Positions 5,409-30,432 of a stretch of 64,000 nt of DNA are shown piece by piece (the stretch's first letter is position 1; each line of letters starts with the position of its first letter). Position numbers and translations under genes: made by a program. Origin of the DNA: Hippea alviniae EP5-r (GTDB lineage Bacteria > Campylobacterota_A > Desulfurellia > Desulfurellales > Hippeaceae); the NCBI RefSeq assembly GCF_000420385.1, contig NZ_ATUV01000002.1, positions 124,001 through 188,000 of the forward strand, in the 5' to 3' direction. The notes under the pieces are model-generated. The model made no database searches, had not been told where the DNA came from, and was given only the letters and a program-made list of their open reading frames with translations.

Positions 5409-5413
5409 GATTT

Positions 5414-7859: not shown

Positions 7860-7910
7860 AACTAACCTCCTAAAAATTAATTATTTTCCTTCCTTTTTTC
7901 TTGCGTGTTC

Positions 7911-10448: not shown

Positions 10449-10476
10449 TAAATAATCCCTATATTTTGATTGTCAA
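10449..10476 (-). promoter_or_regulatory. Promoter of the inositol phosphate operon
   Basis: TTGACA (10476 to 10471) on the minus strand; the best -10 at normal distance is TATTTA (10454 to 10449, spacer 16). The -35 box contains the TGA stop of the preceding TPR gene. Confidence 0.5.
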
Positions 10477-11255
10477 GGGCGAGAAAAGAGAACAGAAATC
10501 AAAGCATAATAGAGCTCTTTATCTTTAACTTCTTTAACATCTATTGTCCTAATCACTTCTCTGGCTTCTTTCAACCTTCCTACCTTAACAAGGGCAAGCG
10601 TATAATTTAACTTAACATCAACAGAATCACCTATACTGAGAGCCTTCTTCAAGATTTTAATCGCTTCATCGTATTTTCCAAGATTCATATATCTCACGGC
10701 AAGATTGTTGTATAAATCCAGATTTTCAGGGAATATCTTTATAAGCTTTTTATATGCCGATATAGACTCCGTATCATTACCATTTTCAGCTACTTCAATG
10801 AGATTAGCAACAGAAACAGATGGCTCTTTATTTTTTGAAGTCTTAGGTTTCTCTTCCTTATAGGCAACATATACACTCTTTTCAACCGTTTTTGGTTTTT
10901 TGATTTCTTGCCTTTCTATCTTTGGTTTAGCTTGGATTTTTACTATCTTATTAACCTTAACTTCAACAACAGATTTATTTTTCAACGCCTGCTTTGTATC
11001 GTTATCAATACTTCTGGCATTAGCTGTATCTTTTACAACAACAGACTTCACTTTCTTGGTTTTTTTTACGTTATGTGTTGTAAACTTATCAACAGCAAAA
11101 AAGCCAACAAATAAAAGAAAAAAACTTACCAAACCGAGAACTACCAACCTTTTAGTATTGTTCTCTTTTCTTGGTTTGACAAAAGGGTTATCTTTTGTTT
11201 CTGGTTGATTTTTTTTATTTTCGAGTTTCTTTATAGCATCGTAAAGTTTACTCAT
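10473..11255 (-). CDS. TPR protein of the pilus operon (MshN-like)
   Basis: 260 residues: a short cytoplasmic N-terminus (MSKLYDAIKKLENKK), one membrane helix at about 36-54, a Lys-rich linker, and TPR repeats at the C-terminus (NLDLYNNLAVRYMNLGKYDE and the following helices). The layout matches the periplasmic TPR protein that sits behind the secretin in MSHA operons, where it is thought to help secretin assembly. It overlaps the secretin gene by four bases and is the last gene of the pilus unit. Family assignment rests on layout and position. Confidence 0.65.
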   Translation of the reverse strand: MSKLYDAIKKLENKKNQPETKDNPFVKPRKENNTKRLVVLGLVSFFLLFVGFFAVDKFTTHNVKKTKKVKSVVVKDTANARSIDNDTKQALKNKSVVEVKVNKIVKIQAKPKIERQEIKKPKTVEKSVYVAYKEEKPKTSKNKEPSVSVANLIEVAENGNDTESISAYKKLIKIFPENLDLYNNLAVRYMNLGKYDEAIKILKKALSIGDSVDVKLNYTLALVKVGRLKEAREVIRTIDVKEVKDKELYYALISVLFSRP

Positions 11256-12772
11256 TGGATAATGATAGGTTTTAACAAAATTATAAGCTCAATATTATCA
11301 GTTAAATCCTGTCTTTGTTTAAACAGACTGCCAACAACAGGTAAATCCGAAAGAATAGGCACACCACTATCCTGTCTTTGACTCGTTTTACTTATTAAAC
11401 CACCTACTGCTATTATATCTCCATTTTTAACTGAAACAACACTGCTTGCTTCTCTTATATCCATAATAGGCAAAGTGTATGTATTGCCGGATATTTCCTT
11501 TTCCTGCAAAGCAACGAGATTACTCTTTATAGGCACAATCCTTAGAAGCACCCTACCATCATCTCTTATATAAGGTGTTATACCAAACATTATGCCATCA
11601 AATACACTCGATATATCAACTGTTGGAGTTGTTATAGTTCCACCCTGTGTACTCTCTGTCGTCACTTCTATATCCTTTATAAAGCTAATTGACCTTCCAA
11701 CAGAAAGAAGGGCGGGCTGTCCATTCATCACTCTAATATGTGGTTCACTTATCAGCTTTAGTGCTCCAAACTGGCTCAAAGCCTGAATAACACTATCAAA
11801 TGTTACATCGTAACTTCCTGGGTGGAAGATTCTCGATATGTTTATCGTCATAGCAGGATGTCCCGTTCCAAAATCTATTGTCTCTTGGGTTATATTAACA
11901 GTTTGATTTAGTTTAGAAGAGTGAGCCAAAAAATCCCAGTTTATGCCCAATTGCCATTGCTTTTTCAAGTTTATCTCTATTATTTTGGCCTCTATCATAA
12001 CTTGCTTTGAATACGCCTTTCTCACTGCATCTATATAGTCGGTTATCATCTTCATGTGAGAAGCATCATCCCGAACAAATAAGATGCCGCTCGCTTTATC
12101 TAAACTAAATGTTCCCTGTTTTGAGAGCATCTTTTTGATATTATCTTCCAGCACTTTATAAATATCAGTGCTTCCCTTAGCAGATGAAGAAGTAAGAGTA
12201 AAACTTCCCTTTAAGGGCGTAGTAACATTGTTATCAGAGTTTGAAGAACCGCCCAAAACATCACCACCAAGCACAGTCTGAGAACTCCTAACAATTCCAA
12301 GAAAACCCAAATCAAATACTTTATTAACAAACGGCGTTATCCAGATTACATTACCTCTCTTCTCCCAGTTTACACCAACAATTCCTGTTATAGTATTTAA
12401 AGCTTTTCTTAAGCTCACATTGTTTAACGATATGCTTATATTTGGGTCGCTTACATATCCACTCAAAGCACTATCAAACGCCACATTGAGATTGTAAGGC
12501 TTGAGTATTTGAATAATAGCATCCTTATACGATATAGATTTAGAAAATATACTAACCTTGGCAAGGTCAAGTATGCTTATCTTCTTCTTTACGGGTTTTA
12601 AAAATCTGCTTAAGTCAATTTTTTTCTGCTCTTTTTTCTCATTTAGTGGTTTGAAATATTGATTTTTTGGAAGTTCAACGCTCTTATTATTACCAACAGT
12701 TGAACAGTTAGAGATAACAACTATAAGCAATAGAATAAGTATAGCATTAATTTTTCTGCGTAGCTTCAACAT
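11252..12772 (-). CDS. mshL: Secretin of the MSHA/type II-like pilus system
   Basis: Outer-membrane multimeric channel for pilus or substrate exit. It has a hydrophobic leader ending at a Cys (VVISNC, residue 23; Asn at -1 is unusual for a lipobox), then a small STN-like domain around residues 85-150, an N1-like domain, and a C-terminal secretin core with LISEPHIRVMNGQPALLSVG, VSVKNGDIIAVGGLISKTSQ and PILSDLPVVGSLFK. 506 residues fits MshL. It overlaps the upstream small gene by 26 bases. PilQ is an alternative name, but the MshM and MshE neighbours favour MSHA. Confidence 0.88.
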   Translation of the reverse strand: MLKLRRKINAILILLLIVVISNCSTVGNNKSVELPKNQYFKPLNEKKEQKKIDLSRFLKPVKKKISILDLAKVSIFSKSISYKDAIIQILKPYNLNVAFDSALSGYVSDPNISISLNNVSLRKALNTITGIVGVNWEKRGNVIWITPFVNKVFDLGFLGIVRSSQTVLGGDVLGGSSNSDNNVTTPLKGSFTLTSSSAKGSTDIYKVLEDNIKKMLSKQGTFSLDKASGILFVRDDASHMKMITDYIDAVRKAYSKQVMIEAKIIEINLKKQWQLGINWDFLAHSSKLNQTVNITQETIDFGTGHPAMTINISRIFHPGSYDVTFDSVIQALSQFGALKLISEPHIRVMNGQPALLSVGRSISFIKDIEVTTESTQGGTITTPTVDISSVFDGIMFGITPYIRDDGRVLLRIVPIKSNLVALQEKEISGNTYTLPIMDIREASSVVSVKNGDIIAVGGLISKTSQRQDSGVPILSDLPVVGSLFKQRQDLTDNIELIILLKPIIIQ

Positions 12773-13160
12773 TTAGACTCACCCTTATATTTCCATTCTT
12801 TGTCTTTAACAAAACACTATCTTTATTTATCTTCAAAACCCTAAAACCTGCTCCACTCTCACCTTCCTTGAAAAGCTTTCCATTTATATAACAGTATTTA
12901 ACATTTTGCGAGATAAATATCGACTCCAAATCCACCTTTAATGTTTGGGCTTGAGCAAAACTCGGAATTATCTCCCTTTTAAAAAAGGCAAACCTATTAA
13001 TAGAACACTTTGAGAAGTTAACCTTTTTAAAACCATTAACATCAGGTATGTTCAGGTTTGGAATATCAGAAACATAATATACAGGCAAAAAATTATCTGC
13101 CAAAAATATGCCAACAAAAAGAGCTACAGGTAAAACAACAAAAACAGCAAAATGTCTCAT
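12747..13160 (-). CDS. Small periplasmic pilus protein (MshK/PilP/GspC-like)
   Basis: 137 residues with one N-terminal membrane helix (HFAVFVVLPVALFVGIFLAD) and a C-terminal beta-rich segment, YCYINGKLFKEGESGAG followed by FRVLKINKDSVLLKTKNG. This matches the short HR-type domain of GspC, PilP and MshK that couples the inner-membrane complex to the secretin. It lies directly before the secretin gene and overlaps it, as expected. Sequence similarity is weak, so the call depends on the domain pattern and position. Confidence 0.6.
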   Translation of the reverse strand: MRHFAVFVVLPVALFVGIFLADNFLPVYYVSDIPNLNIPDVNGFKKVNFSKCSINRFAFFKREIIPSFAQAQTLKVDLESIFISQNVKYCYINGKLFKEGESGAGFRVLKINKDSVLLKTKNGNIRVSLNVEATQKN

Positions 13161-13588
13161 TGCTCAAAACCAAACACCAAAACCTTTTTACCCTTTAAAG
13201 AGAGTTTTAACTCTCCACGAGAGTTTTCTTCTTCGTCATTATTAGACTCTGCAATCCTGAAACTATCAAGAAAGAAAAAACCCTTCTCAAGATAGGTTGA
13301 GTTTACAATCTCATCTATTTTGTTTTTAATCTCATCAGAAGAGAAGTGAGCATCAAACTCAACAGGTTCAACTCTTATAGCCTTTCTTACATCTCCCACT
13401 CTTTTTTTATAAATCACAAAATCATCAATCTTTTTCTCTTCGTTTTTTATCTGATGAAGTCTATTTTCAACCATACTTAAAGCGTTGGAGAGTTCGTCTG
13501 TGCTTTTTGATAGATAAACCTTCATAAAAACTGAAGCAAATATAAGAAAAGAAGCAACAAGAAGATGAATAATCATTTGTCTTCTCAT
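13157..13588 (-). CDS. Inner-membrane pilus assembly protein (PilO/MshJ-like)
   Basis: 143 residues with one N-terminal membrane helix (residues 5-24), a coiled-coil segment (about 30-60, Leu/Glu/Lys heptads) and a short C-terminal ferredoxin-like part. This is the topology of PilO and GspM, which form the inner-membrane platform with PilN and GspL. It overlaps both neighbours by four bases. I cannot identify it from motifs alone; the call follows from topology and operon order. Confidence 0.55.
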   Translation of the reverse strand: MRRQMIIHLLVASFLIFASVFMKVYLSKSTDELSNALSMVENRLHQIKNEEKKIDDFVIYKKRVGDVRKAIRVEPVEFDAHFSSDEIKNKIDEIVNSTYLEKGFFFLDSFRIAESNNDEEENSRGELKLSLKGKKVLVFGFEQ

Positions 13589-14457
13589 CTTACAATAACC
13601 CTTTTTAATCCATTATTGCCCCAAATAAAAGTTGCTTTCTCACCATCATAAGTTATAATCGATTTTTTTCCATTTTTAGACACCTTATACTTTGCACCTG
13701 CAGGTAAATCAATCTGACTCTCAAGCTCTTGCTTCGTCGGTGCTTTTTTATAACTTGAAAACTTATCGGCTATCTGGGATGCAATTGTAAGCAATTTGGA
13801 CTTAGCAGAAGCACCGCCAGAAGATGAACCACCAGAAGAGCTACTATTACACATCCCAAGCTTGTTTTTCACAAGATTTACAAACTCATCAATGCTGTAT
13901 CCATCAACAACATCATCCTGATTTTCTGAATAGGCATGCGAAGGATCTTCGTAAGTTCTTCTTCTATTATTACCCAAAGTTGATGCAATATCATTTTGTC
14001 TATCAAACCTATAATTCAAACTTGCACTGACAACTATAAACGCATAAGGCGAACCACTCTGTATATAAAGCCTATGCTGAGTGGATAAATTGTTTATCGT
14101 ATCGCAAAATGTGGTCTTACTTCCAAAACTACCATAATTACACTCTATCTTGTTCAAACTATTATCTACATCGTAAATTAAATCAAATCCTTGAGCATCT
14201 TTTATACCAAAACCATCAGGTAAAGCCCTTCTATTTTTTCCCGCTACACTTTTCCATACTGGTCTTGGGATACAGTAATGAGTCATTACATAACCTAAAA
14301 TGCTTGATTTTGCTCTTTCAACTGCATTTCTGTTTTTAGTAAGTCTATTCTGCTGCATTAACATTTTAAACATAGGGATACCAATACCTATTATCAAACC
14401 GAGTATAACCAATACTATCGCCATCTCTATCAGCGTAAAAGCAGACTTTTTTCTCAT
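13585..14457 (-). CDS. Prepilin-like protein with Ala at the cleavage site
   Basis: 290 residues with a type IV prepilin leader, MRKKSA-FTLIEMAIVLVILG, including Glu at +5 and a hydrophobic helix. The residue before the cut is Ala, where Gly is usual; some prepilin peptidases accept Ala. The mature part is large, has a Ser/Gly-rich linker near residues 205-217 (SSSGGSSSGG), four cysteines in the middle and a C-terminal domain resembling a small beta module (GAKYKVSKNGKKSIITYDG). It is probably a minor or tip pilin. It overlaps mshM at TAATG. Confidence 0.72.
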   Translation of the reverse strand: MRKKSAFTLIEMAIVLVILGLIIGIGIPMFKMLMQQNRLTKNRNAVERAKSSILGYVMTHYCIPRPVWKSVAGKNRRALPDGFGIKDAQGFDLIYDVDNSLNKIECNYGSFGSKTTFCDTINNLSTQHRLYIQSGSPYAFIVVSASLNYRFDRQNDIASTLGNNRRRTYEDPSHAYSENQDDVVDGYSIDEFVNLVKNKLGMCNSSSSGGSSSGGASAKSKLLTIASQIADKFSSYKKAPTKQELESQIDLPAGAKYKVSKNGKKSIITYDGEKATFIWGNNGLKRVIVR

Positions 14458-15347
14458 TAGCCCCTCCAGAAATAGAAAAGGACAAAAGCTATTAAAACTA
14501 TAGCAAAAAATATGCCCGCAAGTATATAAAACATCTCTCTTTTCGAAGAGAATAGCTCAAGAGACTCTGCTGCACTTACAACATCTTTTTTTGTTATACT
14601 CTTTCTGTTCTCTGCATAAGCCATTAGAAGGGCTCTTTTCATGATACTATTAATCAATCTCGGAATGCCTTTGCTTATCTTAAAAACAAGAGTTTTTGCC
14701 TTTTTGTCCAACGGTATAGAACCACCAGCCTTTGCAAACCTATATTGAATATACTCTTCTGTCTCTTCCTTGCTTAAAGGCTTAAGATAGCAGCGTATTG
14801 TAATTCTCTGATTGAGCTGACTAAGCTTATTTTTTATTATCTTCTCAAGTTCTGGTTGACCTGAAAGCAGAATCTGTAAAGGTTTAAAGTCGTTTGTCTC
14901 TATATTTGAGAGCAGTCTAATCTGCTCGAGTGACTCAAGTGGCAAGCTCTGAGCTTCGTCTATAATTAAAAGCAGCTTTTTCTTCTCCTTCGCAAGATTC
15001 AACAGATAATCTTGAAGCATATTAATATTTTCGGTAAATTCATCGGCTGCTTTCAATCCAATATCTTCCAAAATAGCCTTTAAAAGCTGAGCAGGAGAGA
15101 GCATTGGAGTAACGATAAAAGCAAAGGTATAGTTATTCGGCATGGATTTGAGCAATCTTCTTATAAGCGTCGTCTTTCCCGTTCCAGGTGAGCCTATTAG
15201 GACAGCAAAGCCATCACCATCTTTCAGAAAAAAAGAGAGAAGCCCTAAGGCTTCCTCGTGTGAACTGGATGGATAGAAATAATCAGCATCAGGCGTCAAC
15301 TTAAACGGCTCATCAGAAAAGCCGAAAAAGGAGAGAGAGTCGTTCAT
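14457..15347 (-). CDS. mshM: MSHA biogenesis ATPase MshM (ExeA-type AAA)
   Basis: 296 residues. An N-terminal ExeA-type start (FFGFSDEPFKLTPDADYFYP), Walker A GSPGTGKTT, Walker B LLLIIDEAQSL, a sensor region (ILLSGQPELEKII), and a C-terminal membrane helix (about 273-294, FYILAGIFFAIVLIAFVLFY). ExeA and MshM use ATP to help secretin assembly across the cell wall. It lies between the two prepilin genes. Confidence in the family is high; the symbol follows the MSHA-like order. Confidence 0.83.
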   Translation of the reverse strand: MNDSLSFFGFSDEPFKLTPDADYFYPSSSHEEALGLLSFFLKDGDGFAVLIGSPGTGKTTLIRRLLKSMPNNYTFAFIVTPMLSPAQLLKAILEDIGLKAADEFTENINMLQDYLLNLAKEKKKLLLIIDEAQSLPLESLEQIRLLSNIETNDFKPLQILLSGQPELEKIIKNKLSQLNQRITIRCYLKPLSKEETEEYIQYRFAKAGGSIPLDKKAKTLVFKISKGIPRLINSIMKRALLMAYAENRKSITKKDVVSAAESLELFSSKREMFYILAGIFFAIVLIAFVLFYFWRG

Positions 15348-15362
15348 ACTTCATCTATTTCA

Positions 15363-15953
15363 TTAAAATGCATACCAATACATTGTTGCCATTCCAGTGT
15401 AAGTATATTTATGATTAGAGCGTATATCACCTGTATTATATACGCCATCATCGTACTTTTCATCGAGATATTTTATAACTTCATTAGGCAAATTGACATA
15501 TATGTAATTTTTCCCTAGTGTCTTATTATAATTTACATTATAGGGTGTACCATAAGGACTAATCTTTTGCGGATTTGTATGATTTGTTGGGTCACCCGAT
15601 ATAAACCCAGCACCTGCTAACTCTTGCCAGAAACAAATCCTCTCATCATAACCAGCAACTACATATATATGGCCATCTCCGTTACCACCTGTACATCCTG
15701 TAGCATTCAATCCTGCTGGTGGACGCGCACTTCTATCATTAGGATCATCCCCTGGCAAATAATTATACCTATCCTGATACGAGTAAGTCGCCGCAACTAT
15801 GCCGTCTATATCACTCTTTATCCTTTTCATTTTGGCATTCTTAATCATCTCCTGACCCTTCAAAATAGCTCCCAACAGTAAACCGATAATTACTAAAACA
15901 ATAGCCAACTCAACCAGTGTAAAACCTTCCTTACCCTTCGTCTTGGGTAACAT
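15363..15953 (-). CDS. Type IV prepilin, probable major subunit
   Basis: 196 residues with a classical class III leader, KTKGKEG-FTLVELAIVLVIIG: Gly at -1, Phe at +1, Glu at +5. The mature protein contains a Gly/Asn/Asp-rich loop with a Cys pair (ATGCTGGNGDGH and ERICFW) and an aromatic-rich tail ending WYAF. A separate strong promoter (15984-16012) and an AGGAGG ribosome site precede it, which fits a major subunit needed in large amounts. Confidence 0.85.
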   Translation of the reverse strand: MLPKTKGKEGFTLVELAIVLVIIGLLLGAILKGQEMIKNAKMKRIKSDIDGIVAATYSYQDRYNYLPGDDPNDRSARPPAGLNATGCTGGNGDGHIYVVAGYDERICFWQELAGAGFISGDPTNHTNPQKISPYGTPYNVNYNKTLGKNYIYVNLPNEVIKYLDEKYDDGVYNTGDIRSNHKYTYTGMATMYWYAF

Positions 15954-20167: not shown

Positions 20168-21259
20168 TCAATTCCTGTATGACAACCTCTCCATACCTTT
20201 CTCATAAATCCTGCTATTTCCTTTAACTTCTAATGTAAGTGGGTCAAAGAAGAGAATCTCTTTTTCTGCCCATTTGGAGATAACTTTGATAAGCTCATGT
20301 TTGTTTGGAGAGTTATCTTTTAAAATAAACTTGCCATCTTTAATTATTATCTTTGCAACTTCTCTAAATATCTTCTCTTCTTCTTGACTATTTTCTCTTG
20401 CTAAGAAGTCAACCATCTCAGTATAAGCCAAAAACGCCCTATGCTCTAAATACTCTTTCAATGTCTTAAACTCTTTCTTCTCAAACATCATTCTTTGTAT
20501 ATCAGGAATACAACCACCAAGATAGTCATAGATGAGATTTATCTCTTCTTCTGTGTATCCTTCAGAACTCAACCACTCTACAACTATACTCTTATCAAGA
20601 TGGTCAACCTTGAAGAATTTACTTGTCTTCTTCAATTTTGCATCATTATAAATCCTATCTATAAACACAGTGTTTGAGCTTAGGATAACAACATGAGACA
20701 GATGTGTCTCTTTTGTTAAAGAGACACAGAAGTTTAGGAACTCTTTGAGTAGTTCTCTATCTCCATTTATGTATATATCTTCAAGTGTTTGGATTTCGTC
20801 TATGATGATTATAGGTTGTCTGTTTTTCTTTGTTCTGTTTTGTATCTCTTCCATTAGAACTTTGAATAAGTCTTTCTCTTTGTTTTTTACTTCATTTAGC
20901 AGTTCTGCTTTTATGTTGAATACTCCAATATTGAAGCTTGCTGAGAGTTTCTCTTCTTTCTTGCCTTTGTCATCTTTCTCTGGTGTTAGTATTGCTTCTA
21001 TAAAACTTGAGTAATTGCTTATTAGATATCTTCTTAAGTTTATATACTTCACCCACCAATTACCTTTGGGTTTTAAGTTCTCAAAATCTTCAAATAACTC
21101 TTTTTCAACAACATACTCAATGAGTGTTGTTTTGCCTGAAGATTTTGGGCCATAAACCCAAAGTATTAACTCTGGTAATTGATTGAACCAATCAAGGAAG
21201 AAGTTTATCTCTTTATCTCTGTCTATGAGTTTTTTGTTTCTGAAGATACGGGTTTTCAT
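20168..21259 (-). CDS. Archaeal-type P-loop ATPase (ATPase_2 family)
   Basis: 363 residues. Walker A is VYGPKSSGKTTLIEYVV (about residues 35-51) and Walker B PIIIIDEIQTLEDI; a following VILSSNTVFIDRI segment resembles the sensor strand. The C-terminal third looks like a winged-helix tail. Such ATPases are common in archaea and in thermophilic bacteria and their role is mostly unknown; many occur in several copies or near mobile regions, but I see no ends of an element here. It lies between the LuxC fusion (26 bases) and the pilus operon (21 bases), with AAAGGAG before ATG. Function not assigned. Confidence 0.75.
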   Translation of the reverse strand: MKTRIFRNKKLIDRDKEINFFLDWFNQLPELILWVYGPKSSGKTTLIEYVVEKELFEDFENLKPKGNWWVKYINLRRYLISNYSSFIEAILTPEKDDKGKKEEKLSASFNIGVFNIKAELLNEVKNKEKDLFKVLMEEIQNRTKKNRQPIIIIDEIQTLEDIYINGDRELLKEFLNFCVSLTKETHLSHVVILSSNTVFIDRIYNDAKLKKTSKFFKVDHLDKSIVVEWLSSEGYTEEEINLIYDYLGGCIPDIQRMMFEKKEFKTLKEYLEHRAFLAYTEMVDFLARENSQEEEKIFREVAKIIIKDGKFILKDNSPNKHELIKVISKWAEKEILFFDPLTLEVKGNSRIYEKGMERLSYRN

Positions 21260-21285: not shown

Positions 21286-23985
21286 TTATACCTTTCTTTT
21301 GTCAACTATTAACCTAATCTTGCCTGTTCTTGGATTGCGCTCTATAGAATTGGGTGGAACAATTTTAACCACCACATCGTTTATAAAGCCTTTATTGTGA
21401 AGTATCCTTAACTCCTTTGAATTTTCATATATTATTTTTCTTAACATTTCTTCCCTTTTTTTATCATAAGGTTTTTCGTCAACAGTTTCAACAATAACCT
21501 TGAGTGTATCTTTTCTGTTTTCAACTTCTGCAATTATTTGGAAGTGTTTACTCAATCCTTCAACTTGAGATATAGATTTTGAGATAACTTCTGGATGTAT
21601 ATTTCCACCGCCTATTATCAGGACATCATCACTTCTGCCTAAAAGTTCAAATACTTTAGTCTTTCTGCCGCAAGCGCATTCTCTTTCAACCCATCTTCCC
21701 AAATCTCCAACTTCATACCTTATCGTTGGCATAAGCTTTCTGTGTAAGTTTGTTACAACTATCCTGCCTATTTCACCTGGTTTGCACGGCTCATTGTTCT
21801 CATTTAAAATCTCAACATAGTGCAAATCTTCGTGAACATGATGCAGTCCGCCGCTCTGATGTTCGCACTGATAGCCTATAGCACCAGTATCGTTTGTTGT
21901 ATAACCAGTTGAGGCAAATTTCTTAACTTTCAAGACATCTCTTATATACTCTCTTGCTTCAGAGAACAGATGCTCACCACCCGTTACAACTTTATCAATT
22001 GTCAAATTGACACCGTTCTTATCAACATACTCGGCTATGGATATTGCAAGGGAAGGAATCGTGATAAAACCGTTAGCTTTAAATAGAATCAGCGTATTTA
22101 CTATGTCCTTTACATCAAAGTTTCCGCCCATAGGCAAAATTCGGCATCCAACTACTTCAAGTGCCATGTTGTAAGAAACAAACGATGCCCACATGTTTCC
22201 CGCAAATAGAAGATTAGCAACTACGTCATTCTCATCAAATATAGACAATCTCAGGCCCTTTCCCAACTTTAGAGCATTAAACCACTGCTCTTGAAATGTC
22301 CTATATACAACCTTTGGAGTTCCCGTCGTTCCACCGCTTGAGAACACATAACCCGAAGCATGATTATCCGTCAAAAGACCGTCTCCAGCAGGTGGCAGAT
22401 ACTTTTTGTAATCACTTCCCGTAAGAAGCGGCAATTTTCTAAAATCGTCAAAACTGTTAATCTCATCTATATCTTTGTATCTTTCTGCAAACAAAGGAGA
22501 ATGCTCTTTTGCATATTTCACTATTTTCTTTAGCCTTTCAAGTGTTAGTTTGTCTCTTTCTTCTTGGTCTAAAAAGTCAAAATAGTCGCTTTCTGGGTCG
22601 TATTTATGGTTAGGAACAACAATATCCCACTCAGACTCAACATCATTCCTTGCAAGCGATATCCACTTAACAAGCTCAGATAATCCTTTTGTTCCGTCGT
22701 GTGGAGTGCCATGTTTTCTTGCAGACATTCTGCCGGCTTCTGTAAACCTATCAGCACCAACACTTCCAAGCTCATTTGCCAGCCTTTTGGCTGTATCATC
22801 TTCTGCAACAACGGCCACAGACTGCAGGTATTCACCCATCGGTTTTACTATTTCAACAACATCGAATATGTTATCCACTGCTTTTACAAACAGTGTCCTA
22901 TTCTGACACGATATTTGAAACTCCTTACTGTTCTGATAAACAACTGTAGAAAGGCCTTTGCTTCCAACTCTAAGATCTGATTTGCCCATAGCCTTTTCAA
23001 CCTTCGCAAGCTCTCTAACCTTATTTATCTCCACCGCTTCATCATCATAGACTTCACCCTGTGGCAGGATATCAGCCCAATAGTCGAAGTATTCTGCTAT
23101 CTTCTCAAATAGGGCTTTGGCATTTTCTTCTTTTTCAACATAAACAACATGCGGAGAAGAGCATGCAGACTGCTCCCACATCAGAGCATCTTTGGCTATA
23201 AGTTTGGCTATTTTATCTATCCCTTCCCTTTTGAGTCTTCTATCTTCAACAACGACAAAGCTGTATTTTGGCCCATATTCAACGAGTTTTGTATGAAGCC
23301 CTAAATCCTTTCTATAGCTTTCAACCGTCTCTCTACCACCATAGACAACGATGAAGTCTGCAAGCTGCTTTAGAGGTTTCTCCAAGCGCTCATCTCCACC
23401 CTTCCAATGAATCAAAGCCATAGCCTTATGTAAAATGCCCGTATGGTCGTTTTCTTTGAAGCTTTTGGCAAATAGAACGGGAAATACAGGGTCAACTGTT
23501 GACATCTTCATTATATTGACATTCTTCGTCATTATACCCTGAATTAGGCTATCGACACCACCAACAAATACATTACCTGCTGAGACATGAACAACTATCC
23601 CTTTCGGTTTTGCCATAATATAGCCTTTAAAAACCGGATGATATACCCAATCGTCAAGATACTTATCATCACCCAAATCACATACCAGTCTGGTTTTTAA
23701 ATTCTCCTTCTTCATCATTGAGCACATAGTTTTTATGCCTTCTGCAACCATCGGCTCTGAAAAACCAACAAGAGATGGCAATCTCTTTAGTGCTTCTTTT
23801 CTATAGGGATACTCATCATCAAGCCATAACTCAGAGAGCTTATCCAAAACAGTCATAATATCTTTCATTGGGATTTTCTCTATCTCTTTTTTCAATTTTT
23901 CTGCTTCATCGAGAATCCCATAAATTTCCTTAGGCTCAAGATAAGAGCTCAGCTCCTTTATCTTTCCAAAAACATATATCTCCAT
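21286..23985 (-). CDS. LuxC-like acyl-CoA reductase fused to a PaaK-like adenylate-forming domain
   Basis: 899 residues, two complete enzymes in one chain. Residues 1 to about 460 are a LuxC-type acyl reductase with the thiol-ester cysteine in EQSACSSPHVV (C275) and the MAKPKGIVVHVSAGNVFVGG nucleotide-site segment. Residues about 470-899 are a phenylacetate-CoA-ligase-like domain with the phosphate loop SSGGTTGTPK (549-558), a metal-site pair in ECACG, the GRSDD hinge (783-787) and a C-terminal RNPRTGKIR. Known LuxC reduces activated fatty acid to aldehyde; here activation and reduction seem joined. Substrate unknown. LuxE is next to it, and no luciferase gene is nearby. Confidence 0.85.
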   Translation of the reverse strand: MEIYVFGKIKELSSYLEPKEIYGILDEAEKLKKEIEKIPMKDIMTVLDKLSELWLDDEYPYRKEALKRLPSLVGFSEPMVAEGIKTMCSMMKKENLKTRLVCDLGDDKYLDDWVYHPVFKGYIMAKPKGIVVHVSAGNVFVGGVDSLIQGIMTKNVNIMKMSTVDPVFPVLFAKSFKENDHTGILHKAMALIHWKGGDERLEKPLKQLADFIVVYGGRETVESYRKDLGLHTKLVEYGPKYSFVVVEDRRLKREGIDKIAKLIAKDALMWEQSACSSPHVVYVEKEENAKALFEKIAEYFDYWADILPQGEVYDDEAVEINKVRELAKVEKAMGKSDLRVGSKGLSTVVYQNSKEFQISCQNRTLFVKAVDNIFDVVEIVKPMGEYLQSVAVVAEDDTAKRLANELGSVGADRFTEAGRMSARKHGTPHDGTKGLSELVKWISLARNDVESEWDIVVPNHKYDPESDYFDFLDQEERDKLTLERLKKIVKYAKEHSPLFAERYKDIDEINSFDDFRKLPLLTGSDYKKYLPPAGDGLLTDNHASGYVFSSGGTTGTPKVVYRTFQEQWFNALKLGKGLRLSIFDENDVVANLLFAGNMWASFVSYNMALEVVGCRILPMGGNFDVKDIVNTLILFKANGFITIPSLAISIAEYVDKNGVNLTIDKVVTGGEHLFSEAREYIRDVLKVKKFASTGYTTNDTGAIGYQCEHQSGGLHHVHEDLHYVEILNENNEPCKPGEIGRIVVTNLHRKLMPTIRYEVGDLGRWVERECACGRKTKVFELLGRSDDVLIIGGGNIHPEVISKSISQVEGLSKHFQIIAEVENRKDTLKVIVETVDEKPYDKKREEMLRKIIYENSKELRILHNKGFINDVVVKIVPPNSIERNPRTGKIRLIVDKRKV

Positions 23986-23997
23986 TGTTTGCCTCCC

Positions 23998-25116
23998 CTA
24001 TGATTGGAGTAATTCGGCTGCCGTTATAGCGCAACCTTTATGTTTCTTTTTGCCAGCCCTTCCCAAAAGCTCTATGTAAGGCGTCTCTATTCCGCAATCG
24101 CAATCATCTTTCAGCATACCATAATCGGTTGAAAGAACGGATATTGTCGGTTGGGCAAGATTGTAAGGCGATAAAAACTGCAAAAGCCCTTTCTGGTTAT
24201 ATCCCAAAAATTCAAGTGTGCCTGGCTTTCTTACAAAAATTTTAGCATAGACAGGCACATGAAAATGCCCTTTAGGACAGGTTATATACGGGACACCATG
24301 TTCAACAAAGCCGTAAATGTCTCTAAAACCATCTTTTGGAATACCCAAAACTTCTGATACTTCATCTTTAAACCTATCAAACGGTATGCTTTTTTCTTGT
24401 TTATCTTTCCATCCGCCACCCGTTATAACCATGCTTTCTTTGTGATTAAAATTGAAATAGAGGTTTCTCTTTTTGAGCTCTAAAATTGTCTCATGAATAA
24501 ATGCGGGAAAACCAACAATTCTCAAAGGCGTATTCTTATCTTCTGCATACTCCTTTAGCTTTTCTATAACGCCTTCCATATCAAAGAATGCAGCACCATC
24601 CTTACCTTTGTGGATGGCAAAAAACTTGTTCTTTGCAGGTGTAAAGCTGGCATAAGTGATGTGAGTGTTTGCTGCACCCTTATTGCCCTTTGTATCGGGA
24701 GAATAGCTAAAGACAATATAATTAGAAACTGTATCGCTTTTTATACCAACCCTTTCAACGAGTCTTTCTCTCATCGTGCTCTGCCTAATCTTAGAACCTT
24801 CATCCCAAAGTATGTGGCTTTTTTGGCCACTTGTGCCACTTGATGTAAACTCGTAGGCTATCTTCTCACTCGGCAAGCTTTTTAGCGTGTACCATTTAAG
24901 GACATTAACCATTATATGTGGAATGAGCTTTAAATCTTCTTCTTTTTTTAAAAGTGATGGACTTATGCCTTCGAACTCGCAAATCTTTCTGTAAATCTCA
25001 TTGTTTTCATAGTGAAACTCAAAGGCTTCTCTCATCGCTTGAAAGAATATCTCCCTACACTCCCTGCTAACACAATACGGGTCTTTTATCTCAAACAACT
25101 TATCAAGATACTCCAT
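23998..25116 (-). CDS. LuxE-like acyl-protein synthetase
   Basis: 372 residues, adenylate-forming family of LuxE, which activates a fatty acid and passes it to LuxC as an acyl thioester. Motifs: the phosphate loop FTSSGTSGQKS, VITGGGWKD, FRDIYGFVEHGVPY and YIELLGRAGKKKHKGC near the C-terminus. The ATG at 25116 follows AAGGAGG by six bases and is preferred to a TTG at 25146 that would overlap the previous gene. Its neighbour is the LuxC fusion. The substrate is not evident; the pairing suggests an acyl aldehyde or alcohol product. Confidence 0.85.
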   Translation of the reverse strand: MEYLDKLFEIKDPYCVSRECREIFFQAMREAFEFHYENNEIYRKICEFEGISPSLLKKEEDLKLIPHIMVNVLKWYTLKSLPSEKIAYEFTSSGTSGQKSHILWDEGSKIRQSTMRERLVERVGIKSDTVSNYIVFSYSPDTKGNKGAANTHITYASFTPAKNKFFAIHKGKDGAAFFDMEGVIEKLKEYAEDKNTPLRIVGFPAFIHETILELKKRNLYFNFNHKESMVITGGGWKDKQEKSIPFDRFKDEVSEVLGIPKDGFRDIYGFVEHGVPYITCPKGHFHVPVYAKIFVRKPGTLEFLGYNQKGLLQFLSPYNLAQPTISVLSTDYGMLKDDCDCGIETPYIELLGRAGKKKHKGCAITAAELLQS

Positions 25117-25126
25117 CTTTTCCTCC

Positions 25127-26437
25127 TTAGTTAACCCTTCTGTCAATAAGCCTTTTTATCTTGCCCGTAATAGGGCTTCTTGGAAGGCTCCCAACAGGAA
25201 CAAATTTAACATCAAATACGCTAAAATAGTTAGCATCAAAACCCATTTTCAAAATCTGAATGTTGTCAACCAAGCTTTTTATGATACCTTCTCTGTGTCT
25301 GTTGCTTTTTTGGATATCTGACGACTCAATCCTTAGAATAAAGCCAACAAATCCCTTTTCGTCTTCTGTTATCTCAACCTGATAATTCGGGCTTATCCCA
25401 TCCTTTGACACAAAACTGCTTATGGCTCTTTCAATCTCACCCATAGAAACATAAGCACTTGCTATCTTGAAGTCTTCTCCTGCTCTGCCCTTTAAAACAA
25501 GTATCGGATTCTTATCACCACACTTGCAGGACTCTTTCTTTATATACCCAATGTCTCCAATCCTGTATCGTATAAGTGGCATGGCTGTCCTGTGTAAGTT
25601 TGTTATGATTATTTCACCTTCTTCTTCAGGCTCTGCCACTCTATTTTTTTCAAAATCGAAGATTTCAATAAACTGAAACTCCGTAGGTATGTGGTATTCT
25701 CCTGCTTCGCAATACTCACACTGATAACCCATAATACCGCAGTCTGAACTGCTGTATGCTGCAGCTTTTATTTCGGTGTTTGGAAAAGCCTTCTTTATGT
25801 GGGAAGACGCAGATTTACTTAGATGCTCACCGGCAAACATAATAAGCCTAACAGATTCAAAAACCTTGCCCATCGACAATGCCATGTCGCTTAAAGACAC
25901 AAGAAGGCTCGGCACACTTAAAATTACAGTGGGTTTAAAGGTAAACAGAAACTCCATCATCTTATCGCCTTCCGTTCGAGCTTCTATCGGCAGATGGACA
26001 GCGCCAAGCATCTTTAAAATCTCGTGAGCTCCCAAAAAAGACGGCCAAAGATTTCCGCTAACAAAGAGATTTGCAACTATATCGTTCTCCCTTATACCCA
26101 ACAGATGCAAAGCCTTTGCCTGAATCTCACAAAATTTATCCCACTCGTCATGGGTGAGCGTTATATACCTTGCAACGCCACTTGTCCCGCCCGTTGAGAT
26201 TACTATCATGTTTTTGATTTCTCGTGTTATCATATCCAAAGAGTAAGGAAAAGCGTTGTTGTAAAGCTCATCTCTTGTAAGAAACGGTATATTCAGCCAA
26301 TCCTTGTAAGTCTTTATCTCTCCTATATCTTCAAATTTTTTAGAATAGAATGCAGAGTGCCTTTTAGCAAAGTTAAATATCTCCTTCGCAAGTTCTAAAC
26401 CTTTATCAAAAGGCACATATTTAAACTCCATATCCAT
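25127..26437 (-). CDS. PaaK-like (phenylacetate-CoA ligase family) adenylate-forming enzyme
   Basis: 436 residues, full-length PaaK fold. The phosphate loop is VISTGGTSGVARYI, a metal-site CxxC-CxC arrangement is seen as YQCEYCEAGEYH and ESCKCG, the hinge is LKGRAGEDFKIA, and the C-terminus ends LPRSPITGKIKRL, like the end of the LuxC fusion. It is parallel to the fusion's ligase half and probably arose with it by duplication. It should activate a carboxylic acid with ATP. Ribosome site AAAGGAG; gene gap 10 bases to LuxE. Confidence 0.8.
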   Translation of the reverse strand: MDMEFKYVPFDKGLELAKEIFNFAKRHSAFYSKKFEDIGEIKTYKDWLNIPFLTRDELYNNAFPYSLDMITREIKNMIVISTGGTSGVARYITLTHDEWDKFCEIQAKALHLLGIRENDIVANLFVSGNLWPSFLGAHEILKMLGAVHLPIEARTEGDKMMEFLFTFKPTVILSVPSLLVSLSDMALSMGKVFESVRLIMFAGEHLSKSASSHIKKAFPNTEIKAAAYSSSDCGIMGYQCEYCEAGEYHIPTEFQFIEIFDFEKNRVAEPEEEGEIIITNLHRTAMPLIRYRIGDIGYIKKESCKCGDKNPILVLKGRAGEDFKIASAYVSMGEIERAISSFVSKDGISPNYQVEITEDEKGFVGFILRIESSDIQKSNRHREGIIKSLVDNIQILKMGFDANYFSVFDVKFVPVGSLPRSPITGKIKRLIDRRVN

Positions 26438-26448
26438 CTTTGTCTCCT

Positions 26449-27801
26449 TTATGACTTTATATGTCTATGTTTTTTTGATGCTTGATTCTTGCTTATCCTT
26501 TTTATTTCAACTTCAATTAAGTCAAAACCCGCCGCTTTAGATAGATTATCGTATTTTGCAGCAAACTCTCGTGATAGCTTTTTGAAGTTTTCTATTAATG
26601 TATTCTTTACAAACTCTTCTTTATCCTTCTTGTCTTCAAATGAATAAACAGTAAACCTAAATACATCTATTTCACCTTTTTTAATCTTTTCGACTTCAAA
26701 CAAGCCAGAGTAATGTATCTTGTCTTCTATAGAGTAAAGAATCGCATCAATCTTGGGTATCGTAAGATTCGTGCCATAAAAAACTATACTGTTGCTTGCC
26801 CTTCCGAATATGCACAGCATTACATCTGGTAAACTCTCAAACAGTTTGTCGTCAATTTTACCTTTAAGCTCTTCTTTATAAAGCAATTTTCCTTTATCCT
26901 TTGTGTTGTATCTTATAAGTGGTGTAAGCTGGTCTAAGGTTGCAACTATATTGCCATCTACAATCTCAACAAATGCGTTTTTCGAAGGCTCCATTATCAT
27001 TGGCGTATCACCATCGCCAAACAACTCCTGTTTTAGGCTCTGGTTGTCAAAGGTCAAATACCTTCTTAAAGATATAGTTGATACGGTCTCAACAGCCAAA
27101 GCACCAGTATCTGCACTTCCATAACCTGTCCAAAGAACAGTTTTTGCATCTTCAGTATGACCAAACTTTAGAGTCATCTCTCTTCTATAAAACTCGCTGA
27201 AATACTCTCCAACAACAGCAAAATAGACTCTTCCATTTAACAGGTTTTTGTTATCCTTCACAAGGCTATAAATTACGCTCACATTTGACGGGTTTGTTAT
27301 GAAGAGTATCTGCTCAAAATCCTTCTCAAACCTTTTTGCTATATTTGCGGCTTCTTCTATATCAAAACCAACCAAAGCACATGTTAAGGGATAATCCGAT
27401 TCTGCAGCCAATCTTCTTACCATACAAGCAAGCTGCATTCCGCCTATCCACATCCCGAAAGCCAAAGCGACAATGATAAGCGTTCTTTTTTTGTGAATCC
27501 CGTAAAGCTCCTTTAGGGCTTCTTCGCTCGCCTTTATATAACCCTTTTCGTCTTCTGCCCTTTTTGGCCAATAGATTGTGCCTGTCTTTGAAAAACCACT
27601 TGATGCACCTATGAGAAAGCAGTTGTCGAAATCACCCTTTCTTACTGTTTTTTCCATTGGATAATAAAGCAGATAATTCTCTTTATTCATTATTGGTATA
27701 TCTTCCCATCTATTTACATCCAAAGCATTATGCCTTTCTAAAAAATCCCTATAAGCTTCGACATTCTCTTTGACATCAAAAAACAAAGCCATCTTATCCA
27801 T
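26449..27801 (-). CDS. Divergent PaaK/LuxE-like protein with altered phosphate loop
   Basis: 450 residues, related to the two PaaK-like neighbours by size, by the GYGSADTGALAVETVS segment (counterpart of the D-x-G metal region), by PLIRYNTKDKG and by CIFGRASNSIVFYGTN at the hinge. The phosphate loop is changed to LIGASSGFSKTGTIYW, and the Cys-rich metal site is absent. It may be an enzyme with a different substrate or a non-catalytic partner. It lies 11 bases from its neighbours in the same operon. Fold call good, activity open. Confidence 0.65.
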   Translation of the reverse strand: MDKMALFFDVKENVEAYRDFLERHNALDVNRWEDIPIMNKENYLLYYPMEKTVRKGDFDNCFLIGASSGFSKTGTIYWPKRAEDEKGYIKASEEALKELYGIHKKRTLIIVALAFGMWIGGMQLACMVRRLAAESDYPLTCALVGFDIEEAANIAKRFEKDFEQILFITNPSNVSVIYSLVKDNKNLLNGRVYFAVVGEYFSEFYRREMTLKFGHTEDAKTVLWTGYGSADTGALAVETVSTISLRRYLTFDNQSLKQELFGDGDTPMIMEPSKNAFVEIVDGNIVATLDQLTPLIRYNTKDKGKLLYKEELKGKIDDKLFESLPDVMLCIFGRASNSIVFYGTNLTIPKIDAILYSIEDKIHYSGLFEVEKIKKGEIDVFRFTVYSFEDKKDKEEFVKNTLIENFKKLSREFAAKYDNLSKAAGFDLIEVEIKRISKNQASKKHRHIKS

Positions 27802-27810
27802 ACTTCCCCC

Positions 27811-29001
27811 TTAGTCAAAATCCTTAATAACAGCGATTCTTAACCCACTCAACCCTATAGCAGTTCCAGCTACAACAAGTATCCATTTAACACCAATCAA
27901 AGACACTAAAAAACCAGTTAGTGCATAGCTAACAGGCATCAAAGAGAACGAAACGGCACTCAAAAACGACATAACCCTTCCCAAAATCTCATTGGGTAAT
28001 TTTCTTTGAAGCAGTGAAAGTATCGTCACATTTAAAAAGTTTATAGAGAAGCCTATAGCAAAAAGCGTTATAAGTGAAACAGAGAAAAAGAGTAAATTAG
28101 CCAATACGACAAACATAATCCCCAAAACAAGAAGACCAACTGCAAGCTGAAACTTCTCCTTTGCCTTTATCTTCACATTGCCAAGCAAAATAGACGACAA
28201 AAACATACCAAACCCAAAGCTTGCCATCATAAAACCCATTCCCTTTGCGCCCGAGTGATACACGCTCTCTGCTATTATCGGTATAATAATTACAAGAGAA
28301 CCGTAAAATAGGTTTATAATAGCAAGTTTTCCTATAAGCGTTGATGTTATCGTGTACTTCTTTATTAAACCAAAACCATCTTTTAAGGCATCAAAATAAG
28401 AACCTTTCTCTATATTAGACGCTGGCCTTTCTGCTTTTATTCCATACAATAGCAAGGCAGATGCACCAAAAGATAAAGCATTAACCAAGAATGCAAGAGG
28501 AACACCGATAGCAGCTATCAAACCAACACCTATAACAGGCCCTATAACGGCGCTGAAGCTTGTGCTTATCCTGACCAAAGCGTTTGCCTTTGTTAAATCT
28601 TCTGCCCTTACTATCTGTGGAACCAAAGCTAATGAAGCAGGCTGAAAATATCCAGAAGCTATAGACATAAAAACGGTAAAGAGCAAAATGAACCCTAAGT
28701 TTAACTTTCCAGAAAAAGCCAAAAGAGCCAGCCCAAAAACGCTTAACGCCTGCACAATATCTGTTATTACCATTATTCTCTGTCTTTTTTTGCTGTCAGC
28801 TACTGCACCTGCAATAGGTGAGATAAGCATAGCAGGAAGTGAAAATGATATCATAACAGCTGCTAAGACTATTCCTGATTTACCGTAATGATAGGCTATC
28901 CATAGAAGCGCAAGGGAATGAACACTATCGCCTATGCAGGATATAAAACGGGATAAAAAAAATCTCAAAAAGTATCTGTTGTTCTTAAAAATATCTAACA
29001 C
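27811..29001 (-). CDS. MFS exporter (MFS_3, EntS/MefA-like)
   Basis: 396 residues with about twelve membrane helices. The first segment RFISCIGDSVHSLALLWIAY, the loop SPIAGAVADSKKRQRIM (motif A) and the PASLALVPQIV segment match the family of macrolide and siderophore exporters. It begins with GTG, three bases after the stop of the GNAT gene, with no clear ribosome site, so it is likely translated by coupling. It is part of the LuxC/LuxE cluster and suggests that the product, or an intermediate, leaves the cytoplasm. Confidence 0.82.
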   Translation of the reverse strand: MLDIFKNNRYFLRFFLSRFISCIGDSVHSLALLWIAYHYGKSGIVLAAVMISFSLPAMLISPIAGAVADSKKRQRIMVITDIVQALSVFGLALLAFSGKLNLGFILLFTVFMSIASGYFQPASLALVPQIVRAEDLTKANALVRISTSFSAVIGPVIGVGLIAAIGVPLAFLVNALSFGASALLLYGIKAERPASNIEKGSYFDALKDGFGLIKKYTITSTLIGKLAIINLFYGSLVIIIPIIAESVYHSGAKGMGFMMASFGFGMFLSSILLGNVKIKAKEKFQLAVGLLVLGIMFVVLANLLFFSVSLITLFAIGFSINFLNVTILSLLQRKLPNEILGRVMSFLSAVSFSLMPVSYALTGFLVSLIGVKWILVVAGTAIGLSGLRIAVIKDFD

Positions 29002-29004
29002 GGC

Positions 29005-30432
29005 TTATTCAAACACCCTTTTCATCATTGAAACAGAGTATCCAAACAACTCTTTTGCAAACTCTCCGTAAACCTTCAACCTTTCAACATTCACAAGCGT
29101 ATTAAGATACTGAAAACGGATTAAATCTTTGCCAAAAAACCCAAAAGGTATTATGCCACTGAAGAAAAAACCGAGCGACTCTATTTTTTCTATCTCGTCG
29201 TCTATAGGTCTATCTCCCAACGATATATTGAGAAATATAACTTCAGCCTGTGTCGTAAACCTAATGTGATTAAAGGAAGCCTTAATCTTTTCAAAAAGGT
29301 CTTTACCAACCTTTACCACATTTATTGTTCCAAAACCCCAAGAAGTATTGTATTTTGCATCCAACTTTGTTGTCTTAAAATATACAGGTTTTGGCTCTTC
29401 TATCTCAAAACCGTGATGAACATATATCTTCTCTATCATATCTTTATGTTTTTCAGGTATAAACACGCCTAAATGTTCCTTAGACAGAGATTTAAAGTAA
29501 AACAGGCAAGTCTCCCTTTCTGAGAGTGGTTTTATCTCCATCTTCTTGTAATTAAAGTTTTTTGGAACAAGTCCAAATGATACACCACACACCTTAGAGC
29601 CAAACTTCTCGTTCACCTTTTGCGTCCTTGTATGACTCATAACAGGCTGAGAAAATATACCTTTCATCCTTAGACTCTTGGCTGTCTCTTCTAATTTCTC
29701 TCTCATTTTTGAAAGAATGCCTCTGCCTCTATACGAAGGCTCAACTATGGCTTTACCTATCTCTCCAACATCGTAAAATCCGTGTCTTTCTATTGCATAA
29801 TGACCAACAATCCTGTTGTAAGTTTTATCAATAGCAACAATAGAAATAAGCCCACCCTTTCTATTAAGCTCTTCAATCCTTTCAGGATAATACACATCTT
29901 CTGACGGATAGGTATAGCCACAAGTTTTATATATCAACTGAGAAACCTGATATGCATCTTCTGGATTAAGAAGCTCTATGGATATATTATCTGTTGGCTC
30001 TAAATGTTTGCTTAAAAAAGGAATGGCATACTGGGTTATATCTTTTTTGGGTCTGAAGAATGTTATTTTTAGCTCTTTTCCTTCTTTTCCATGATTGAGC
30101 CACTCTATCTTATCGCATGTGTTTTTAAGCAGAGCTAACTGAAGCTTGCTAAACTGGTCATTCTCAGCAACTCTATCTCCAAACGGAATACCTTTATCCC
30201 TAAATGATATGCATAGGTGAGACTCGTCTATATTGACATCTATGTCAACTAAACCCTTCTCGTCTTCTTCAAACGAGTTTCTCAGTATATAGACAAACGA
30301 CTCTTCAGCTATTAGCTCAAAACGAGTAAGACTCTCCTTTGAAAAACCTGCAACTTCAGCAGATTTAGAAATAAACGCTTTAACAACGGGCAAACAGCCT
30401 ATATCGTTCTCAACAGTCAGCCTAAAGTTCAC
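29005..30432 (-). CDS. Fusion of RsbW-type ATP-binding domain and GNAT acetyltransferase
   Basis: 475 residues. Residues 1 to about 130 resemble the HATPase of anti-sigma kinases (RsbW): N-box-like FELIAEESFVYILRNS and a G1-like box SFRDKGIPFGDRV. Residues about 150-290 are a GNAT domain with the acetyl-CoA loop VEPSYRGRGILSKMREKLEE. The remaining 180 residues are unassigned. It starts with GTG, 63 bases after the end of pyc, and is the first gene of the acyl cluster. A protein acetylase controlled by, or controlling, a partner switch is one guess; a biosynthetic N-acyltransferase is another. Confidence 0.72.
   Translation of the reverse strand: MNFRLTVENDIGCLPVVKAFISKSAEVAGFSKESLTRFELIAEESFVYILRNSFEEDEKGLVDIDVNIDESHLCISFRDKGIPFGDRVAENDQFSKLQLALLKNTCDKIEWLNHGKEGKELKITFFRPKKDITQYAIPFLSKHLEPTDNISIELLNPEDAYQVSQLIYKTCGYTYPSEDVYYPERIEELNRKGGLISIVAIDKTYNRIVGHYAIERHGFYDVGEIGKAIVEPSYRGRGILSKMREKLEETAKSLRMKGIFSQPVMSHTRTQKVNEKFGSKVCGVSFGLVPKNFNYKKMEIKPLSERETCLFYFKSLSKEHLGVFIPEKHKDMIEKIYVHHGFEIEEPKPVYFKTTKLDAKYNTSWGFGTINVVKVGKDLFEKIKASFNHIRFTTQAEVIFLNISLGDRPIDDEIEKIESLGFFFSGIIPFGFFGKDLIRFQYLNTLVNVERLKVYGEFAKELFGYSVSMMKRVFE

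Follow-up and report, generated by a model that had tools for sequence, protein, structure and literature searches.

Introduction

Protease inhibitors in wide use include peptide aldehydes such as leupeptin, which some gut and soil bacteria make. Its assembly takes three ATP-dependent activations, two for amide bonds and one for a reduction, and to our knowledge an NRPS-free route to peptide aldehydes has been described only from a few enterobacteria.

According to the passages of PMC11212599 that cite Li et al. 2020, leupeptin biosynthesis proceeds through separate AMP-dependent ligases and a reductase, and the parts of PMC8283571, PMC11480411 and PMC11212599 that relate the same work place leupABCD, together with a transporter, in Klebsiella michiganensis, Xenorhabdus and Photorhabdus. 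Other small peptide aldehydes, namely antipain, flavopeptin and livipeptin, are made by NRPS- or tRNA-based routes (PMC10548850). Here we analyze a six-gene operon of the hydrothermal-vent bacterium Hippea alviniae EP5-r, found in a 64,000-nucleotide stretch of contig NZ_ATUV01000002.1 (hereafter, the window).

Results

The six open reading frames were confirmed where an earlier, sequence-only reading had placed them, all on the minus strand and running from 30432 to 21286 (Table 1). As that reading had described, they are co-directional and tightly packed, neighbors being separated by 3-12 nt apart from one pair that overlaps by about 20 nt, and the operon contains neither luciferase gene (luxA, luxB), nor luxD. 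Promoter-like sites at the locus were no more numerous than in shuffled sequences in a promoter scan, and terminators barely more so. A pyruvate carboxylase gene lies upstream, and an AAA ATPase gene and type II secretion/pilus genes lie downstream; none of these was seen next to a cassette elsewhere, and the pyruvate carboxylase and secretion genes were for that reason rejected as members of the system. Among the cassette neighbors examined, none was recognizable as a peptidase or self-resistance gene, and no fatty-acid, carrier-protein or ether-forming genes travel with the cassette.

Table 1. Genes of the Hippea operon, with positions given in the window.
Gene	Product	Position	Strand	Length	Matches
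1	RsbW/SpoIIAB-like HATPase domain, GNAT acyltransferase and second C-terminal domain	29005..30432	-	475 aa	
2	MFS exporter (predicted)	27811..29001	-	396 aa	MFS_1, MFS_3, TIGR00900 (below cut-off), EntS-like
3	PaaK-A, highly diverged PaaK-type adenylating enzyme	26449..27801	-	450 aa	
4	PaaK-B, PaaK-type adenylating enzyme	25127..26437	-	436 aa	
5	LuxE-family acyl-protein synthetase	23998..25146	-	382 aa	
6	LuxC reductase fused to PaaK-type adenylating domain	21286..23985	-	899 aa	

Gene 6 joins a LuxC domain (PF05893, E 2.5e-90) to a PaaK-type domain with AMP-binding_C_2 in the Pfam and NCBIfam searches; it can be aligned to the solved structures 7xc6_A (LuxC) and 4r1l_A, and the fusion is common to all carriers. 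Cys275 of the window LuxC pairs with the cysteine of 'QQACFS' in 7xc6_A. Gene 5 is a LuxE (PF04443, E 1.6e-44) that matches the solved LuxE 7xc6_E with E 4e-25, and the acyl-accepting-type cysteine in its C-terminal 'KGC' pairs with the 'KGC' of that structure and is kept in all of the LuxE proteins compared (25/25). The cassette resembles luxCDE in the folds of LuxE and LuxC and in their catalytic cysteines, but it lacks LuxD and luciferase, its LuxC is fused to PaaK, and both proteins fall far under the NCBIfam equivalog cut-offs for the lux fatty-acid reductase (LuxC, 166.5 bits against 750; LuxE, 108.8 against 550). In the LuxE and LuxC trees the cassette proteins stand apart from lux, on long branches, and the groupings in the two trees are congruent with each other. 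We propose that gene 6 makes a terminal aldehyde.

Gene 3 had been called PaaK-like, and this proved right despite the absence of a Pfam match and a weak NCBIfam PaaK match: the AlphaFold model of PaaK-A (pLDDT 78) finds PaaK1/PaaK2 structures as its top Foldseek match (E 1.5e-16, probability 1.00), and the motifs SSGFS, YGSAD.G, RY.T.D.G, GR and KH are invariant in eight relatives. PaaK-A is a specific marker of the six-gene form. PaaK-B matches AMP-binding (PF00501), with the DVU1553 and PaaK models below cut-off, and carries an invariant P-loop-like STGG.G and C-terminal TGK. The PaaK equivalog cut-off of 700 bits is reached by none of these proteins, LuxC-PaaK scoring best with 164 bits, PaaK-B 121 and PaaK-A 26.5, and the NCBIfam BagE/FevW ligases are weakly similar to the cassette ligases. 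A PaaK array in Muiribacteriota (L071) is distant.

The sequence-only reading had taken gene 1 for an ATP-binding/GNAT fusion. The fusion itself stands: Pfam finds Acetyltransf_1 (E 3.5e-8) and, weakly, HATPase_c_2, the AlphaFold model (pLDDT 81.5) matches GNATs and RsbW 6m37 in Foldseek (TMt 0.86-0.87), and the HATPase fold is matched to 6m37, 1th8 and 1til. The part described as ATP-binding, however, is an RsbW-like domain whose N-box asparagine (E-x3-N), as read by eye, is gone in the window protein and in all aligned homologues except one (L041). Because this residue is mostly lost, the domain is probably regulatory rather than catalytic. In many carriers a Cache-HAMP-SpoIIE phosphatase, a STAS protein and an RsbW-like HATPase kinase adjoin the cassette, and the free HATPases of these modules retain the asparagine. 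The arrangement recalls Rsb/SpoIIAB partner-switching modules, but differs from them in that the RsbW-like domain of the Hippea form, with its N-box asparagine mostly lost, is fused to a biosynthetic acyltransferase.

The complete set occurs in the same order in two Hippea-family genomes and in Bacteroidales, Acidobacteria, Deltaproteobacteria and Marichromatium. Its members are 27-66% identical across phyla, and a gene order shared at such divergence is, from these comparisons, far beyond chance. The unit is rare (about 1% of the genomes sampled outside Hippea's phylum) and patchily distributed, and the plasmids and phages searched held no close full-length relative of the fusion of the six-gene form. 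The cassette genes co-diverge (Spearman 0.62-0.93), falling into two sub-blocks, MFS/PaaK-A/PaaK-B and LuxE/LuxC-PaaK/GNAT, which hint at some mosaic exchange. Judged by shared order and co-divergence in unrelated bacteria, the six genes are a genuine unit, which supports the earlier suggestion that they serve one pathway; the lack of shared neighborhood elsewhere that would have counted against that suggestion was looked for and not observed.

Streptomyces and Enterobacteriaceae also have compact operons of the GNAT, MFS, PaaK, LuxE and LuxC-PaaK families. The one in Enterobacteriaceae, LuxE-LuxC-PaaK-PaaK-GNAT, turned up in 14 of the 392 E. coli-family genomes searched and has four genes spanning 5757-5820 bp where intact, compared with 5781 bp for the published leupABCD; some loci have an MFS gene upstream, as does the published leup operon its transporter, and at the LuxE/LuxC junction, where the leupB primer encodes EQLKDHA, one locus (L108) has EQLKETLA. 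The leupA primer had no site within 4 mismatches in the enterobacterial loci and none in viral contigs. Going by gene number, length, junction primer and transporter, this operon (L099-L112) is probably leupABCD. The E. coli complete genomes contained nothing close to the Salmonella-plasmid cluster. A literature search for LuxC, LuxE and PaaK in combination returned no match. The sequence-only reading was aware of no pathway described for such a set, and on this point it is not supported: leupeptin is made by separate AMP-dependent ligases and a reductase, as reported in PMC11212599, and LuxE, LuxC-PaaK, PaaK and GNAT make up the operon fitting leupABCD.

The LuxE, LuxC, PaaK and GNAT domain of the window all have homologues in this operon, whose identity as leup is drawn from geometry and primer; for the GNAT domains the homology is clear (hhalign 99.5%, E 2e-22), and the second domains of the two GNAT proteins have no significant similarity. 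Taking the leup families as assigned here, the Hippea and leup operons are both compact and apparently mobile, with variable insertion sites; each has separate AMP-forming ligases along with a reductase and a transporter, and each lacks an NRPS. Compared with leupABCD, the Hippea form has another gene order, PaaK-A as a fourth adenylating enzyme where the leup-type operon has three such units, an RsbW-like domain on its GNAT, and in many carriers an adjacent partner-switch module; it is a distinct variant. Its PaaK domains are also non-orthologous: in the PaaK tree the fused domain of one form does not group with that of the other, the fused and free PaaKs of the leup type are sisters (97%), and the fused PaaK was rejected as a leup orthologue. 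The LuxC domains of the two forms split deeply, on long branches. Phylogenetically, then, the Hippea cassette is not a simple leup orthologue.

Streptomyces plasmids (L075, L064, L063) carry a five-gene cluster, PaaK-MFS-GNAT-LuxE-LuxC-PaaK, in which the five enzyme families shared with the Hippea form are likewise adjacent, but PaaK-A and the HATPase domain are missing, and the LuxE and PaaK trees place it nearer the enterobacterial form. A related pair of LuxE and LuxC genes on a Streptomyces plasmid lies beside YcaO and an enzyme of the MbnB/TglH/ChrH RiPP family, and this location suggests peptide carboxylates as substrates in that branch.

Discussion

On balance, we lean towards the view that this operon moves horizontally and directs the synthesis of a small, N-acylated peptide aldehyde that is leupeptin-like, made independently of NRPS and ribosome, and exported. 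The GNAT domain would N-acylate the first amino acid, and the stand-alone enzymes PaaK-A, PaaK-B and LuxE would activate the acid as it grows and join more amino acids or amines to it. Once complete, the acid would be loaded onto the cysteine of LuxC by the fused PaaK domain or, as in lux, by LuxE, and reduced by NAD(P)H; the MFS protein would export the resulting aldehyde. Acid activation, reduction of a carboxylate to an aldehyde, possible acylation by the GNAT and MFS export had all been suggested before, and our analysis supports them as predicted functions. Because there are four adenylating units rather than the three of the leup-type operon, one more bond than in leupeptin is predicted, as in a tetrapeptide aldehyde with an N-acyl cap or a tripeptide aldehyde with a different cap. 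Such a product would belong with antipain, flavopeptin and livipeptin as an N-capped peptide with a C-terminal aldehyde, but the cassette has neither their A-PCP-R NRPS nor the L/F-tRNA transferase. The STAS/kinase/SpoIIE partner switch may act through the RsbW-like domain to gate the first step.

In lux, LuxC and LuxE serve as the fatty-acid reductase pair, and with both catalytic cysteines conserved they could instead act on long-chain acyl groups, giving a wax, an ether-lipid precursor or a lipid signal for modification and export. We consider this unlikely, given the position of both proteins apart from lux on long branches, their scores (LuxE 109 bits, LuxC 167) against the lux cut-offs, the lack of luxD, carrier protein, ketosynthase and acyltransferase in the cassette, and the difficulty of placing three further PaaK-type units; the ether-lipid or wax product envisaged earlier is less likely in particular, as no fatty-acid, carrier-protein or ether-forming gene accompanies the cassette. 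The chances seem somewhat poorer still for an aromatic or heterocyclic acid pathway like that of griseoluteic acid (ehpF/ehpG), in which an aromatic carboxylate would be reduced by PaaK and LuxC-type enzymes and decorated by other ligases. The EhpF structure (3hgu/3hgv/3l2k) is among the fold matches of PaaK-A, ehpG, an aldehyde-dehydrogenase-family gene, adjoins ehpF in phenazine operons, and the weak BagE/FevW similarity points the same way; yet no phz or other scaffold-building gene accompanies the cassette, and a GNAT better suits the N-capping of an amino acid.

An acyl or aldehyde decoration built by LuxE/LuxC for a surface glycan or protein is improbable: homologues of the pair appear in flagellin-modification papers, with a proposed role in flagellin glycosylation islands (PMC7874193, PMC4875605), but the cassette itself contains no glycosyltransferase or nucleotide-sugar gene and its MFS exporter points to a product that is small and soluble. 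That the operon merely houses unrelated enzymes with separate substrates, as its two co-diverging sub-blocks might allow, is very improbable when unrelated, rare carriers keep six genes in one order.

Within the peptide-aldehyde reading, a more specific version is tentative: the cassette may represent a separate NRPS-independent class, parallel to leup and built from the same families, with the fourth ligase adding a residue and the acyltransferase gated by STAS/SpoIIE docking on the RsbW-like domain. If the peptide-aldehyde reading is true, the NRPS-free route would reach sulfur reducers living at vents and purple sulfur bacteria, as well as Bacteroidales and Acidobacteria, and its clusters there have probably been overlooked by mining tools keyed to NRPS or PKS core genes. 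The Streptomyces operons would become a candidate for leupeptin-like genes in that genus, and LuxC and LuxE would gain a role outside light production. The fusion of a partner-switch domain to a biosynthetic acyltransferase would suggest a new kind of switch for a natural-product pathway.

Gene content and distribution of the cassette

The six-gene cluster proposed in the sequence-only reading was borne out, since its genes lie in tandem on one strand, separated by 3-12 nt and with one gene overlap, and family searches recovered the LuxC, LuxE, MFS, GNAT and PaaK-type domains. The stand-alone protein PaaK-A had no match in a Pfam search, and the best structural match of its AlphaFold model (mean pLDDT 78) was to the PaaK1/PaaK2 structures. 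Eight relatives share its adenylation motifs without change, and its P-loop is unusual (SSGFS), suggesting that PaaK-A is probably an active but diverged adenylating enzyme. The model of the first gene product (pLDDT 81.5) shows a GNAT part and an RsbW/SpoIIAB-like part. In alignments with the solved complex 7xc6, its LuxC and LuxE cysteines coincide with those of the cassette proteins. An archaeal-type AAA ATPase gene lies 26 nt downstream, before secretion/pilus genes; none was seen beside the cassettes of other genomes.

Coordinates of the cassette and of related or neighbouring features
Feature	Position	Strand	Content
Window cassette	30432 to 21286	minus	HATPase-GNAT fusion, MFS, PaaK-A, PaaK-B, LuxE, LuxC-PaaK fusion
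PaaK-A	26449-27801	minus	stand-alone PaaK-type
PaaK-B	25127-26437	minus	stand-alone PaaK-type
Window AAA ATPase	20168-21259		PF01637
L065 (genome G672)	4714-15813		Cache-SpoIIE phosphatase gene overlapping MFS gene start; HATPase-GNAT gene last
L071 (Muiribacteriota)	5357-9369		three successive PaaK-type genes, one a distant PaaK-A relative
L075 (Streptomyces plasmid)	4239-11680		PaaK-MFS-GNAT-LuxE-LuxC-PaaK
L064 (Streptomyces plasmid)	6683-14160		PaaK-MFS-GNAT-LuxE-LuxC-PaaK
L063 (Streptomyces plasmid)	about 6500-14226		PaaK-MFS-GNAT-LuxE-LuxC-PaaK
L074 (Streptomyces europaeiscabiei plasmid)	2025-10483		LuxE and unfused LuxC adjoining YcaO, MBL-fold and MbnB/TglH/ChrH-family genes
L072 (Salmonella enterica plasmid CP053580.1)	7578-15073		LuxE, LuxC-PaaK, PaaK; MFS truncated, GNAT broken

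Within the host's phylum, the cassette was found in 3 of 25 genomes (the window's and two others of the Hippea family, G004 and G014) with identical gene order, and was absent from Hippea maritima. Scanning the named genome collection yielded twelve relatives of the LuxC-PaaK fusion, from MAGs labelled Bacteroidales, Acidobacteria, Deltaproteobacteria, Proteobacteria, Neomarinimicrobiota and Muiribacteriota and from the isolate Marichromatium gracile DSM 203. On contigs of sufficient length the order of the six genes was mostly kept; the GNAT gene was relocated and inverted in L045 and last in L065. The PaaK-A profile matched 2/210, 1/295, 3/345 and 5/297 genomes of four further groups; one of the last five (L070) was a weak match without the cassette, which was confirmed in the remaining newly fetched genomes. 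The Muiribacteriota genome of L071 carries the LuxC-PaaK fusion on a different contig from its PaaK array. The cassette is a genuine but rare unit, and probably a mobile one. The proposal that all six genes serve one pathway is supported by the same genes recurring, mostly in the same order, across unrelated carriers, and by their co-varying pairwise identities (Spearman 0.62-0.93).

Trees of LuxE and of LuxC pair the window cassette with a proteobacterial MAG and those of G004 and G014 with an acidobacterial MAG, suggesting that the family probably gained the cassette at least twice; this is not certain, however, because the PaaK-domain trees set the window cassette nearer to G004 and G014. 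Read by eye, the surroundings of the G004 cassette hold a transposase, a type I modification gene and a RhuM/Fic-like gene.

An associated partner-switch module

In many carriers (L033, L035, L037, L043, L044, L045 and L068) the cassette adjoins genes for a STAS protein, an RsbW-like HATPase and a Cache/HAMP SpoIIE phosphatase. This module is partial in L038 and L040, reduced to the phosphatase in L065, and represented by phosphatase and STAS upstream in L041; in G014 it sits entire on a different contig from the cassette. With the G004 phosphatase as query, we found a 55% match in G014, only a distant 32% match, without neighbouring STAS or HATPase, in the window genome, and none in two Hippea genomes without the cassette. 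A dedicated module appears to be missing from the window genome. The N-box asparagine is gone from the GNAT-fused HATPase domain in all aligned proteins except one but kept in the free HATPases, which makes docking a more likely role for the fused domain than kinase activity. The L065 arrangement couples sensor phosphatase and operon directly.

Related operons and the proposed product

Leupeptin is acetyl-Leu-Leu-argininal. K. michiganensis makes it by means of leupABCD, which lies beside a transporter. By the published coordinates, 5781 bp separate leupA start and cluster end (PMC8283571); a second source describes separate AMP-dependent ligases and a reductase (PMC11212599). A tblastn search of plasmids returned related five-gene sets, including the Salmonella operon L072, which neighbours recombinase genes and an IS3-type transposase (the latter read from translation). 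Intact relatives are present in other enterobacteria: of 392 E. coli-family genomes, 14 had a LuxE 62-95% identical to that of the Salmonella plasmid, and all 14 fetched loci had LuxE, LuxC-PaaK, PaaK and GNAT in this order. Genes are shortened or split in L100 and L111, some loci have an MFS-related gene upstream, and the nine operons measured span 5757-5820 bp. The reverse complement of the leupB primer encodes EQLKDHA, and a similar EQLKETLA lies near the start of one LuxC-PaaK protein (L108). We infer that these operons are leup.

Streptomyces sp. NBC_00158 carries consecutive PaaK, MFS, GNAT, LuxE and an 853-aa LuxC-PaaK, and the same families occur in S. cattleyicolor and S. sp. BHT-5-2. 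The plasmid clusters L075, L064 and L063 are candidate source genes of leupeptin-like inhibitors in Streptomyces. Three I36 peptidase-inhibitor genes adjoin L075. The product of the L074 cluster is possibly a RiPP carrying an aldehyde formed by reduction at its C-terminus.

An hhalign comparison (99.5%, E 2e-22) shows homology between the GNAT domains of Hippea-type and leup-type proteins; the second domains of these proteins are not significantly similar. LuxE of both types branches apart from bioluminescence LuxE. However, the fused PaaK domains of the two types do not group together, the leup-type fused and free PaaK being sisters, and the LuxC domains are deeply split on long branches. We therefore rejected the Hippea cassette as an orthologous leup operon; either it was put together in parallel, out of the same families, or the two types split very long ago, and, though not a member, it may operate as leup does.

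Making leupeptin takes three ATP-dependent carboxylate activations, two for amide bonds and one for a reduction. The leup type has three adenylating units (LuxE, fused PaaK, free PaaK) and the Hippea type four, the simplest reading of which would be a peptide aldehyde with one bond more. We infer the whole scheme, in which LuxC would perform the reduction, GNAT would N-acylate the peptide aldehyde and MFS would export it. The lipid, wax or ether products suggested earlier are disfavoured. The best reading is that the Hippea cassette represents a new variant type of leupeptin-like, NRPS-independent pathway to a putative N-acyl peptide aldehyde.
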